From: Methanocalculaceae archaeon
GTDB taxonomy: Archaea; Halobacteriota; Methanomicrobia; Methanomicrobiales; Methanocorpusculaceae
Direction: 5' to 3'
DNA: 12,781 nucleotides
NCBI GenBank assembly: GCA_031255895.1
Contig: JAIRRQ010000074.1
Coordinates: 1-12,781, forward strand
Of the stretch, positions 111-4,743 are shown one piece after another (position 1 is the first letter of the stretch; every line of letters starts with the position of its first letter). The position numbers and the translations under genes were made by a program. Below the pieces are notes generated by a model. It was not told the DNA's origin and did no database searches. It saw only the letters and a list, made by a program, of their open reading frames with translations.

Positions 111-917
111 ATGAAACAGATAGCCCTCTATGGTAAGGGAGGTATCGGAAAATCCACGACATCCGCGAACCTTTCGGCAGCGTTTTCTGAGATGGGATTG
201 GATGTCATGCAGATAGGTTGTGATCCAAAGCATGACAGCACCAGGATGCTAATGCACGGACGCTGGATTCCAACTGTTCTGGAATGTATGCACGAACGAA
301 ATGATTTCACCATTGATAATGTTGTCTTTACTGGGTTTGGCAGTGTTCGATGTGTTGAGGCAGGAGGGCCAGAGCCTGGTATCGGGTGTGCGGGCAGAGG
401 GATCATTGCGACGTTTCAGCTACTGGAAAAGATGAATGCACTCTACGGAGATGTAGTAGTGTATGATGTGCTGGGTGACGTGGTTTGTGGCGGGTTTGCG
501 ATGCCTATGCGGGATGGATATGCACAGGAGATCTATCTGGTAACGAGTGGCGAACTGATGAGTTTGTACGCCGCAAACAATATCTGCAAAGCAATTGCTC
601 GGTTGTCACAGCGAAATACTGCACGATGTAGGCTGGGGGGAGTTATCTGTAATTCAAAGAATATGGATTATGAACGCGAGCTTGTTACTGAGTTTGCAAA
701 TAGGATCGGATCAACTCTCGTGCAATTTATTCCTCGTGACAAGACAGTGCAGGCGGCCGAGGTGAATCAAATGACGGTGATCGAACACACTCCACAATCG
801 CAGCAGGCTGAAGTATATCGCAGGCTTGCAAAGACGATTCTTTTCAATGAAGATCTGCAAATTCCCAAACCTATTGAACTTGACGAGTTGGAACATCTTG
901 CCAGAGAATACTTATGA
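111..917 (+). CDS. NifH-like ATPase (group IV nitrogenase-like reductase component)
   Basis: A 268-residue protein of the NifH/BchL/CfbC family, dimeric ATP-dependent [4Fe-4S] electron donors. Visible motifs are the Walker A loop GKGGIGKST (residues 8-16), switch I DPKHDST (38-44), the two cluster cysteines C93 (in GIGCAGRGI) and C126 (in GDVVCGGF), and switch II DVLGD (119-123). R96 matches the arginine that is ADP-ribosylated in NifH. Length is close to CfbC and NifH. The ATG at 111 is fixed by an in-frame TGA directly before it. It is the first gene of an operon with NifD-like and NifK-like genes, so it should donate electrons to that complex. It could be mistaken for cfbC, but cfbC works with a single CfbD rather than a D/K pair. 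The family is certain; the substrate of the system is unknown. Confidence 0.93.
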
Positions 918-1944
918 AACCAGAATGGCAGGCTGTGCCTTAACTGGTGCCCTGTCGGTTGCCTGTTTTATTCTCGGAGCGACGGTTGTGGTACACGCAC
1001 CGCAGGGTTGCGTGCATCAGATGTTTTCAATGTTGCACGCTACAGCAAGTGATAGTGAGATTTTGGCTATTCCAGAGATCATCGTTTCCGATGTTTCTGA
1101 CTGTGATGTGATCTTCGGTGGAGAGGAATGTTTGTTTGATGCCTTGACACAGGCAGCGACGAGGCGTCCTGATTTGATTCTGGTGATGACTTCTTGTGTA
1201 CCTGAGACGATTGGTGATGACTGTGGTGCAGTCTGTGCCCACCATCCGTATGCGGATCGGATTGTGTATGTGCCGACATCTGGATTTTTGGGCGGCAGTG
1301 CAAAAGATGGAGAGAATGCAGTGCTCACGGCCCTTGCAAATCGTGCACCAATTGCCGAGTTGATTCCTGGAACGGTCGCACTGATTGGGGAAAAAAATCT
1401 GGAGTCAGAAGTAGATCAGAATTATGCGGAAGTGGAACGGCTGCTCGATCGATTGAATCTCCATGTTGTAGTGAGGTTTTGTCGGAATTGTAACTATATG
1501 GATCTGATGAGGCTTGGGACGGTTGCCTGTTTCATTCTGCGGGATGACTGGGTAGCGGATGCGGGGAAGAATATCGGTGAACGATTTGGACGTCCGGTTA
1601 TTCCTGAGATGCCTCGTGGGCTTTCCGAATGTCTTGTGTTTCTGCGTGTTACAGGTGTTGCTTGCGGCATAGCAGAGGAATGGATTGCGATGGCGATTGC
1701 AGAAGAAACAGCATATCAGAATTCGATGCTTGCAAAATTCGCAAATCTTTCCGGAAAAACGGTATTTCTCGGTGCTGAACCGTTTGTGGGAACAACGTCA
1801 GTCGCTCGAGAGGCAATTACACGATTGGGTATGCAGGAGAGTGTGGATGGATTTTTGATTCGACTTCCATTTTATCTACCTATCGGAGTGATGGGGGTCG
1901 AAAAGATGCTGTATCTGTGGCGACGTGCGGTGAACAATGGCTGA
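898..1944 (+). CDS. NifD-like catalytic subunit of a nitrogenase-like enzyme
   Basis: A nitrogenase component 1 type protein of about 348 residues, against about 480 for true NifD. All three NifD P-cluster cysteines have counterparts: GCALTGA (C13 from the TTG start), HAPQGC (C38) and [11 protein letters not shown] (C100). At the C-terminus LPIGVMG replaces the NifD region around the cofactor histidine, and no histidine is present there. The Cys ligand of FeMo-co also has no clear match. The start is uncertain: ATG 925 leaves only three residues before the first cysteine, while TTG 898 adds PENTYETR, which I think belongs to the fold; ATG 847 is also open. With TTG 898 it overlaps the NifH-like gene by 20 bases, suggesting coupled translation. 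The last 8 bases overlap the NifK-like gene. CfbD is the best known relative in methanogens, but here a second subunit is encoded beside it. Confidence 0.88.
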
Positions 1945-3076
1945 GAACAACTGTGCAAATCCTGTATGGCCATGTGCGATGATCGGGGCTGTGGCGACGC
2001 TTTCAGGTTTTTCAGATCTTTGCATAATTATTCACGGATCGTCTGGGTGCTATTATTATCCAAAGTCATTGCTGAAGGTGCAGCTGTTCAGTACACTTCT
2101 ACTGGAGTCAGAGGTTGTGTTCGGGACAATCGATCGATTGTATGAGGTTACTACTGAGGTTGCAAAGATCGGGAGGCCGATTGTGGTGGTGAATACTTGT
2201 GTTCCAGCACTGATAGGTGAAGATCTGAAGACGGTACTTTCAGATATTATGGCAACATTTGTGGACTCTCCTGGTTTTTGCGGAAATGTGGAAGAAGGAG
2301 CCGCAAAGGCGTTTGTGGCGATGATGCCTGACATTGTAGCGGATCGATCCGGAGTCAACATTGATGGTATCAATCCATTGGATTTGTTTTGGCGTGGGAA
2401 TCTGTATGAAATGGAACGGTTGCTCGATCTTCTCGGGATTCCCGTTGCGGTACGATTTTGTCACGATACATGGGAAAATATTCGACGAGGTGTTTCCCCG
2501 GTCACCATCTCTGCAAATCCGTCTTATGCATCCGGTGTGGGAAAAAGTCTTGGCAGTATGCTGTTTTTGGACATTCCGAAAACAATTGATCAGTGCCTCA
2601 CGCAGTTCCAGAATATTAATGCAGATGCCGTGCTTGCGGAACGACAACGTGCCGAAGAACAGATGTTTTACTCCTGCGATAAGTATTTGAGGAAGTACGC
2701 ACCGCCAGTCGTTGCAATTGCTGCACAGGAGAGTTACGCAGTGTTTGCGAAGGCGATGATGGAACGATATTTTGGGTCAGATGTACCTGTGGTATTCGCG
2801 CGCAATCGAACAACGATGGGTGTTCCATACTCTGTGAATTCCGCAGAGATTAATGCAATGATTGATGAGGTGAATCCAGATCTAATCCTTGGATCATCCT
2901 TTGAAGCGGCAGCCTGCCGGAATGCAGCGTTTTTCGGCATTACACCGCCGGATAGAACTCACGTTTTCGTTGCAGCTCGACCTCTCGTCGGTGTGGAGGG
3001 TGGATTGGTATTGATCGAGGGGGCGCTGAATGCACTGATAAATAACCAAAAAAAAAGAAAATTTTTGAATATATGA
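1937..3076 (+). CDS. NifK-like subunit of a nitrogenase-like enzyme
   Basis: A 379-residue nitrogenase component 1 type protein that matches NifK at its N-terminal half: WPCAMIGA (C13), IHGSSGC (C38) and NTCVPALIGEDL (C88) are the three P-cluster ligand positions of NifK. It also shares a segment with the neighbouring NifD-like protein: ERLLDLLGIPVAVRFC (161-175) against [16 protein letters not shown], showing common ancestry and an extra shared cysteine. The C-terminus, RPLVGVEGGLVLIEG, is the counterpart of the cofactor-side helix region. GGTGA at 1929-1933, three bases before the ATG, serves as ribosome binding site, and the start overlaps the NifD-like stop by 8 bases. It probably forms an alpha2beta2 complex with NifD-like. 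The basic tail (KKRKFLNI) is odd and may be drift. The partner role is inferred from operon order and motifs; substrate unknown. Confidence 0.88.
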   Translation: MAENNCANPVWPCAMIGAVATLSGFSDLCIIIHGSSGCYYYPKSLLKVQLFSTLLLESEVVFGTIDRLYEVTTEVAKIGRPIVVVNTCVPALIGEDLKTVLSDIMATFVDSPGFCGNVEEGAAKAFVAMMPDIVADRSGVNIDGINPLDLFWRGNLYEMERLLDLLGIPVAVRFCHDTWENIRRGVSPVTISANPSYASGVGKSLGSMLFLDIPKTIDQCLTQFQNINADAVLAERQRAEEQMFYSCDKYLRKYAPPVVAIAAQESYAVFAKAMMERYFGSDVPVVFARNRTTMGVPYSVNSAEINAMIDEVNPDLILGSSFEAAACRNAAFFGITPPDRTHVFVAARPLVGVEGGLVLIEGALNALINNQKKRKFLNI

Positions 3077-3750
3077 ATCACTTTTCGAATTGATTGGTAA
3101 TCGTTTCCTCTTGGAATGTAGATTGCATACCTCCTTTTATTTTTCGAATAAGTCATGAATTGTTTATTTCACCAAGATATATCACAATGAACAATATTTT
3201 AGATTATATCCTTTCATAATTGTGTTCTGTCCTCAGTCAACATGGAACTATTTCTCAATTGTGACAAAAATTGGCATGTTATTCGAATAAATGGGTTTTT
3301 GTGCCATATTTCCATTTTCATTGATATTGTGTTGATCTTACTCTTCCATTTAGCAACGAAGATTTCTGTTTGAAGTGATCTCCTTATATCGTCGAAGACT
3401 AGCATATGGTCTTGGTGACTCTTTTGAGGAATTTTTCCTTGTCAATGTCGTCAAATTCGGAATGTCACGTGAAATACGAGTTGTCTGAGAAAAATCCTTC
3501 ACCATCCACATGCTGGAACATGACAGAAATAGTTTTTTTTTCAATTTTCGATTTTCATTTCCCAATTGTCTCCCAATAGTGAGGTTCAATAGACTCTGCT
3601 GATCTCACAAAGATTGTTTTGATGTGTATTTTCCACATTACTGGTAATTTGAAGTATATTTTTGTGTGAAACTAGCGAAACGTCATTTCGAAACGTGTGT
3701 TGTACTGCATGTTCATCGTGTTTCTTGCAATATTTCTCCGTGTAAGAGGT

Positions 3751-3853
3751 GCTCCGACAAGAGATAGTGAGATTCGAACTGCTCAGTCGGGAGATGATGT
3801 GTTTCTCCGTGAGACGATCACGATTTGATTGGACGGTTGTTATCTGATCAAAT
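3751..3853. repeat. Cluster of consecutive inverted repeats
   Basis: Three potential hairpins follow each other. CTCCGAC (3752-3758) pairs with GTCGGGAG (3786-3793) with one bulged G, and encloses TGAG/CTCA (3768-3771 and 3782-3785). CGTGA (3808-3812) pairs with TCACG (3818-3822). ATTTGAT (3823-3829) pairs with ATCAAAT (3847-3853). TTTCTCCGTG occurs twice (3734-3743 and 3802-3811). They lie just before the candidate RNA promoter, so they could be upstream regulatory sites or part of a longer transcript. Function unknown. Confidence 0.35.
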
Positions 3854-3860
3854 TTGCCGA

Positions 3861-4152
3861 AGATATAGTATAATGGATCTGATATCTCTCAATGATGATT
3901 GTTCATTCACTCATTATGATAATCTCATTACTTCCAGTTTTGGGATATCATGGAAAAATGGTGACTAAATGGTGACGAGGTAAGAAATGAGTGCATGTCC
4001 ACATATGATATCCTAACTAACTCTTCCCGAAATCATCCTGGGTATTTCCATTGATAGGATGTTCATTGGATTGGGTAGCAACATCTCATTTGTGATCAGT
4101 GTACGTGATATTTGCACATCAAACGCGGATATTACGACAAAAATGTCGTTTT
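3861..4152 (+). ncRNA. Candidate structured non-coding RNA (low confidence)
   Basis: A TATA-like stretch (GATATAGTATAATGG, 3862-3876) is followed by a long-range inverted repeat: GGATATCAT (3943-3951) and ATGATATCC (4005-4013), extendable to 12 pairs with two G-U. Inside the loop the 9-mer AATGGTGAC occurs twice at 11-base spacing (3957-3965 and 3968-3976). A 6-bp hairpin followed by a T-run closes the region at 4134-4152. Together these form promoter, stem and terminator in the right order for a transcript of about 250-260 bases on the + strand. There is no match to RNase P, SRP RNA or tRNA that I recognise. Inverted repeats of this size can arise by chance in AT-rich DNA, so this is a hypothesis. 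Confidence 0.25.
4134..4152 (+). terminator. Hairpin plus T-run, terminator-like
   Basis: ACGACA (4134-4139) and TGTCGT (4144-4149) form a perfect 6-bp stem with an AAAA loop, running directly into TTTT (4149-4152). This resembles an intrinsic terminator for a + strand transcript. No protein gene lies directly upstream, so it would end either the candidate RNA above or read-through from the nitrogenase-like operon. Archaea mainly need only the T-run, so the hairpin's role is uncertain. Confidence 0.35.
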
Positions 4153-4743
4153 CACTACACTTTTTGAAGATAAAACAGTTGATTTGGTGGAACGAGTATC
4201 ACTGATATTTTGTTTACCGCTGCAGAGGTAACTGCATTGAGGATAAAGGTTTCCGCAAAAAACTCTGTAATAACTGAAATTTTGACTGTACTTACTGAAT
4301 TTGTCGTGTTACAATGTTCATGCGACTACACCACTGAGAATAATCTGATATCTTTTATCATCTCGCAAGAGGATCTGTTCATCATAACTAACAAGGATAG
4401 AACCATTTGAGACAATGCGTTTTTTTAAGATTGATGTATTAGTGAACAGCGGTGTGGTTGATGTCCAGAGAGTGATGATCTTTGGCATCAGGTACTTTGA
4501 TAGGTATCTGTCTTCGAAATACTAACTGACACGTACTAAATAATATATTGTGTGTGTAATTTGTAAGGTACGATTTTTGAATTAATATAGGGCAGCGGAG
4601 TAGGAAAATATGCATGCGTGTTTTGCCATGGTGTGTTCGTTCTCTATTTTTTGGATGCTGTCGTTATGACTGGCAATTGTCAGGCATTGGAATACTGACA
4701 CATCATGATGATGACGAACATACCTGATGCTCCGATTTTCAAT

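Follow-up and report, generated by a model that had tools for sequence, protein, structure and literature searches.

A single nitrogenase-type iron (Fe) protein probably serves two different component 1 partners in the order Methanomicrobiales. The stretch of DNA considered here (the window, which is contig G000:C107 in its whole length of 12,781 bases, from an assembly that is 62% complete) carries at its left end three open reading frames (ORFs) resembling nifH, nifD and nifK, here called H, D and K, each of which overlaps its neighbour. It is likely that H is the CfbC, i.e., the Fe protein of F430 synthesis, for a CfbD encoded elsewhere in the genome, and that it also acts as the Fe protein of D/K, which would be a tetrapyrrole reductase driven by adenosine triphosphate (ATP).

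The first-pass annotation of the window described a NifH-type ATPase and two component 1 proteins at 111..3076, each of the latter with three P-cluster cysteines, and the overlapping ORFs, their Pfam matches and the alignments bear this out. H (111..917, plus strand, 268 amino acids) is a nitrogenase Fe-protein (NifH) homologue that matches Fer4_NifH at 354 bits. Its two [4Fe-4S] ligands, Cys93 (387..389) and Cys126 (486..488), are kept in 23/23 aligned rows, the row of the window being counted here and in the alignments below; we take them to be the equivalents of Cys97 and Cys132 in NifH numbering. D (898..1944, plus strand, 348 amino acids) is a short alpha-type component 1 protein whose match to Pfam PF00148 (156 bits) spans model positions 1–296 of 399 only. 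It overlaps H, and its start was placed at the TTG codon at 898 because close relatives share the start residue and the sequence there. K (1937..3076, plus strand, 379 amino acids) is a beta-type component 1 protein that overlaps D, matches PF00148 at 119 bits and has orthologues order-wide. P-cluster positions 1, 2 and 3 are occupied by Cys13 (934..936), Cys38 (1009..1011) and Cys100 (1195..1197) in D, kept in 54/54 rows, and by Cys13 (1973..1975), Cys38 (2048..2050) and Cys88 (2198..2200) in K, kept in 45/45 rows, all on the plus strand. The full set of six is a trait of NifDK.

The trio is conserved and is not a chance arrangement, since H, D and K recur as neighbours. In a sample of 150 Methanomicrobiales genomes, 108 have a completeness of 90% or more and a contamination of 5% or less (“good” below), and an orthologous D (E below 1e-45) is present in 104 of these 108. 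The remaining four lack a full D: G047 and G149 have neither D nor K, and G116 and G020 are counted as assembly gaps because K or pieces are still present. The distributions of H and K agree with that of D across the order, with K partial or broken in some genomes. A pattern scan, which is the only coverage of D/K beyond the phylum, gave 179 loci, and the best 80 of these all belong to Methanomicrobiales or to metagenome-assembled genomes (MAGs) titled Euryarchaeota. The nearest of these 80 named loci to the window are from Methanocorpusculum and related MAGs, in agreement with the methanogen host first proposed. H immediately precedes D in 77/77 of the named loci that hold H; in the other three (L140, L173 and L177) the stretch starts with D or no more than 160 bases away from it. 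K is near D in 74/80, following it on the same strand in 64/74 (four of them more than 50 bases from D, one solely through a split K) and lying on the opposite strand, 2.0–3.7 kb away, in 10/74, of which 8 are titled Methanoculleus. Over a 294-genome sample of the phylum, a D profile matched 54/55 Methanomicrobiales at 357–516 bits, and every other match, paralogues included, reached at most 180 bits. This gap marks D as an order-level gene, at least inside this phylum.

The case for H as CfbC is one of elimination. H passes the NCBIfam model F430_CfbC (423.4 bits, cut-off 402); for comparison, three CfbC from other families, linked to cfbD or cfbB, score 409–430 bits and one nif NifH control scores 364.8. 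In its own assembly H is the sole NifH match, and the cfbD of that assembly lies elsewhere, with cfbB and cfbE (G000:C105). The first-pass annotation named a genome with no other cfbC or cfbD as a refutation, and half of this applies: another cfbD is there, and another cfbC is absent from the assembly. Nineteen good genomes hold exactly one NifH match, which is of the H type in 18, the weak match of G116 being the exception, and CfbD is above its cut-off in 16/18 of these near-complete single-NifH genomes (G094 and G098 are without it). Within the genus of the window, 6/25 genomes have no CfbD above the cut-off, which is unremarkable because they are 69–92% complete. No NifH was found within the stretches of 31 cfb loci of the order (the 30 best matches and the window’s own assembly), where cfbE, cfbD and cfbB were seen. 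Other families of the phylum do have one there: among 12 loci from f8, f22 and f30, NifH adjoins cfbD in nine (eight with cfbB as well) and cfbB alone in three (L220, L221 and L229). Judging from gene content, H would thus by elimination be the working CfbC of this order, and by the same elimination D/K would use H in the single-NifH genomes. The idea that H is a reductase private to a system outside F430 synthesis has to be given up, since it passes the CfbC model and is the sole NifH in 18 near-complete relatives. Likewise, the statement that the system is “not CfbCD” stands for D/K, which are separate from CfbD, and fails for H.

The two genomes without D and K are the most telling for the role of H. 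G047, which is 99% complete, has one NifH match (H type) and a single component 1 match per search, taken as CfbD from its place. H is therefore able to serve CfbD without D/K, as G047 keeps H and CfbD in their absence, and the F430_CfbC model accepts the H of both G047 (406.5 bits) and G149 (415.0 bits). In both genomes H is preceded, as elsewhere, by the conserved genes for flavodiiron, TrkH or kinase proteins and followed by a gene for a 139-amino-acid protein (family c6), and it is exactly between H and c6 that D/K are missing. In a cfbDEB tree, G047 and G149 group together (100/95) beside two D/K-bearing genomes (94/79), which favours loss of D/K over their never having been gained; the approximately unbiased (AU) test did not reject the D/K-bearing genomes as a single clade (p 0.116).

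The NifH tree speaks to the origin of H. It covers 20 of the 77 named H loci, has a very long Bch outgroup and was rerun without Bch and without L219. The CfbC of the 12 linked loci form one clade (100/99) and 23 H rows form another (100/99), and H joins nif-type NifH at 96/91, or at 98/91 once the Bch outgroup is removed. In this tree H is nearer to nif-type NifH than to linked CfbC, although not significantly so by the AU test. A constraint that joins H with linked CfbC carries a cost of 7.55 log units, with a p-AU of 0.122, so the tree favours, but does not prove, that H replaced an older CfbC. Lone NifH proteins at L219, L232 and L233 (genomes G328, G249 and G171) do not reach the CfbC cut-off and branch apart from the clade of linked CfbC, so that unusual Fe proteins may be in use in other families as well.

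D and K are members of neither the CfbD nor the Nif families. Their scores against curated models are far below the cut-offs, with D at 27.5 and K at 41.9 bits for CfbD (TIGR03282, cut-off 268.4), 80.0 and 49.8 for NifE (cut-off 505.1), and 60.1 and 22.1 for BchB (cut-off 490.35). Neither reaches the NCBIfam cut-offs for BchN or BchB, the families of dark-operative protochlorophyllide oxidoreductase (DPOR). In the component 1 tree, which was built quickly, has no bootstrap and contains long branches for Bch, D, K and CfbD form separate clades (99, 100 and 100), and D and K stand outside the NifD/E and NifK/N groups (support for those groups in the SH-like approximate likelihood ratio test, SH-aLRT, of 100 and 98). 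This agrees with the earlier placing of D/K as a component 1 pair, heteromeric by prediction, outside the CfbD and Nif clades. In an alignment with NifD and NifE, the column of the cysteine that binds the iron-molybdenum (FeMo) cofactor, presumably NifD Cys275, holds Arg in 13/13 D rows, with a gap of two residues just before it, and the column of the cofactor histidine is a gap in 13/13. D also ends early: 125–134 residues follow the cofactor Cys position, compared with 219–221 in two NifE and 268–274 in two NifD. A FeMo-type cofactor is not expected in D/K from these alignments.

A third, lone component 1 protein of 396–417 amino acids was seen in other families, at L250:2950-4200 (plus strand), L251:2430-3617 (minus strand; PF00148 282 bits) and L249:3087-4307 (minus strand). 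In L250 and L251, both of family f5 and genus g6, its gene comes after cfbD, cfbB and a further ORF, and in L249 (family f6) it lies some 16 kb from cfbD. All three form a clade of their own (100) and, unlike D, keep the Cys at the FeMo-cofactor position.

The closest likenesses of D and K are found in fold and in a sister system. Single-chain AlphaFold models of D and K are confident, with predicted local distance difference test (pLDDT) values of 90.4 and 93.2, and with VIA-align the top-ranked fold for both models is BchB of DPOR (D: Z 30.0, 330 residues aligned, root mean square deviation [rmsd] 3.8; K: Z 37.4, 371 aligned, rmsd 2.6), at about 16–22% sequence identity to the DPOR chains. 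The best row outside DPOR is a methylthio-alkane reductase chain, with Z 27.8 for D and 34.0 for K. DPOR is also heteromeric and has no FeMo-cofactor; it differs in lacking the full set of six cysteines, going by passages of PMC12552129, while D/K keep all six. In the component 1 tree the sister of both D and K is one system, made up of a NifH::NifE fusion and a NifN-like protein (SH-aLRT 95 and 89), whose single aligned fusion row is also without the cofactor Cys. Among the matches listed this system occupies 16 loci (L258–L273), with fusion ORFs of 671–805 amino acids. Around it, each family being named from one representative, are an ABC ATPase (12/16), a FecCD permease (10/16), a binding protein (9/16), the adenosylcobinamide amidohydrolase CbiZ (9/16), a CbiK-type chelatase (5/16), CobN (4/16) and ChlI/ChlD (4/16). 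These neighbours, which include a transporter of the FecBCD type, suggest, in modest counts, the uptake of corrinoids or tetrapyrroles and the handling of metals, so that the fusion loci are probably a salvage system for such compounds that has a nitrogenase-like reductase of its own. The fusion system differs from H-D-K in having its reductase fused to the alpha subunit, often with corrinoid and chelatase genes, and the two are not the same since both occur in G025. Among the substrates first suggested, a tetrapyrrole is the likeliest kind, with the fold closest to DPOR and the sister system near corrinoid genes.

With H as a shared Fe protein, the mechanism could run as follows. H would drive F430 synthesis with the CfbD encoded elsewhere, and a second, order-specific component 1, predicted to be a complex of D and K, would draw on the same H. 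By analogy with DPOR and CfbCD, the ATP-bound H dimer would dock on D/K, hydrolyse ATP and deliver electrons singly to an iron-sulphur cluster where D and K meet, which would be held by the six cysteines and be P-cluster-like. The cluster would in turn reduce a tetrapyrrole held directly in the cavity that corresponds to the place of the cofactor in nitrogenase, and the shortened D would leave space for a bulky ring. Candidate substrates are F430, an F430 derivative or a corrinoid. Both CfbCD and DPOR are described as reducing double bonds and as having [4Fe-4S] clusters and sites for a tetrapyrrole (passages of PMC12552129 and PMC7242693). H-D-K would have in common with CfbCD its ATP-driven Fe-protein chemistry on a tetrapyrrole; it differs in that CfbD is a homodimer encoded elsewhere and D/K a separate pair, predicted to be heteromeric.

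Several points weigh against this account. A common fold proves no function, BchB is likewise a short chain, and the Foldseek E-value leaders are NifE for D and VnfK for K, not DPOR. One of the two NifE rows in the same alignment is also without the cofactor Cys, so its absence is a strong sign and not an exclusive one. BchNB and CfbD do not have all the P-cluster cysteines, according to part of PMC12552129, and electron transfer would not be exactly DPOR-like because D/K keep all six. No tetrapyrrole genes lie beside H-D-K itself, and the genes around the sister system may work on a different compound. In the NifH tree the reductase half of the fusion is not sister to H, so that D/K and H may have separate histories. 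Finally, D/K cannot be essential to methanogenesis, as two good genomes do without them.

One could consider a more specific role, in which H-D-K re-reduces or modifies finished F430, for example by returning 12,13-didehydro-F430, which we take to be an oxidation product of F430, to F430. One Fe protein would then make F430 via CfbD and mend it via D/K. In the 50 loci with at least 5 kb upstream, genes on the same strand within 6 kb code for TrkH (37), a flavodiiron-type protein (29), a PRK-family kinase (16) and superoxide reductase (9). A repair role would fit the oxygen-defence genes among these (flavodiiron 29/50, superoxide reductase 9/50) and the salvage genes of the sister system, and it is possible, at a low probability. 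The upstream genes were rejected as operon partners, since the pattern resembles synteny rather than a pathway. All four are absent from 7/13 loci of the window’s own genus, and besides H, D and K no gene was found to recur in all the named loci. The c6 family (e.g., L143:9728-10144) directly follows K on its strand in 25/77 loci and adjoins H in both D/K-less genomes; the one member tested had no Pfam or NCBIfam match.

Another explanation is that D/K is a cofactor maturase or carrier resembling NifEN, supplying, for example, [8Fe-9S-C] clusters for the activation of methyl-coenzyme M reductase (MCR). Among curated models D scores highest with NifE (80.0 bits), and the best solved chain for its profile is also a NifE (149 bits). 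NifB is needed by methanogens that have no nitrogenase as well, and complex Fe-S clusters are present in the assembly of proteins that activates MCR (passages of PMC12176620). However, every D row is without the cofactor Cys of NifE and NifD, and the chain beyond that position is truncated. MCR activation is a step that methanogens share, whereas the phylum sample has D/K in Methanomicrobiales only, and G047 and G149 are without it. A maturase is therefore unlikely.

A catabolic or assimilatory reductase of a small compound other than a tetrapyrrole (methylthio-alkane, sulfonate or similar) is also improbable, and decidedly so. Such an enzyme would resemble the group IV systems MarHDK and IsrHDK: the gene order H-D-K is that of isr (part of PMC11423573), and the six P-cluster cysteines are those of MarDK (part of PMC12552129). 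However, Mar binds an [Fe8S9C] cluster, as described in the same part of PMC12552129, and D, aligned to NifD and NifE, has lost the Cys at that place. No radical S-adenosylmethionine (SAM) protein is found among the 10 annotated recurrent neighbour families (of 25 clusters; one representative of each was annotated), so that the radical-SAM partner of those systems is missing from the annotated neighbours. D/K is also near-universal in the order, unlike a catabolic gene.

It is very unlikely that D/K is a spare or regulatory F430 cyclase, in effect an extra CfbD acting on the same substrate. H would be shared between the two, and D is as short as CfbD (348 vs 356 amino acids). However, D, K and CfbD are in separate clades. 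CfbD itself is conserved, with 64–72% identity to the window assembly’s own CfbD in the loci of the order, and is present without D/K in G047 and G149. That H serves D/K alone, with the CfbD of Methanomicrobiales fed by another ATPase, is highly improbable: H does share its locus with D/K and falls among nif-type NifH (98/91), yet G047 retains it in place without D/K and with a single component 1 taken as CfbD, and the CfbC model accepts H, the G047 and G149 versions included. A role for D/K as a substitute for CbiJ (cobalt-precorrin-6A reductase) was dropped, as families without D/K are also without CbiJ. Pfam CbiJ had no match in any of 288 phylum-sample genomes, with M. jannaschii matching as a control, and this absence is itself a gap in corrin synthesis across the sample.

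Parts of this picture are already known. The NCBI model names H as CfbC, and archaeal NifE/N-like pairs were described in general terms by Dos Santos et al. 2012 (passages of PMC3464626), who also mention NifH::NifE fusions with data not shown. The same passages describe a NifE/NifN-like pair in M. labreanum, of the same genus group, Mlab_1040/Mlab_1039, with 2 + 1 conserved cysteines and an ABC transporter; it is taken as a different system, set apart by description, because of 2 + 1 vs 3 + 3 cysteines. A search of the open-licence literature found no description of the D/K pair, though Fig. 4 of Dos Santos et al. 2012 may include it (3 + 3 Cys, no cofactor ligands). Nor did that search yield any account of CfbC being paired with D/K throughout the order, of a cfb cluster that has no cfbC or of genomes in which D/K are missing. 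Elsewhere in the window, about 1.6 kb past K (3080-4740) hold short unsupported ORFs only, with no Rfam match at the gathering score, and two adjacent CpXC-domain proteins lie at the right end of the contig (11200-12608).

Methanomicrobiales are a large source of biological methane, and almost every good genome sampled from them carries this nitrogenase-type enzyme, which would belong to the nitrogenase-like reductases that have no need of FeMo-cofactor. Should two component 1 proteins be driven by one Fe protein, H would be a case of a shared nitrogenase-type reductase, and CfbD alone can hold H in a genome, as H is kept where D/K are absent. A shared H would also explain why cfbC seems to be missing from the cfb cluster of the order. 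With this, the search for the substrate becomes directly testable, by comparing the tetrapyrroles of species with and without D/K.

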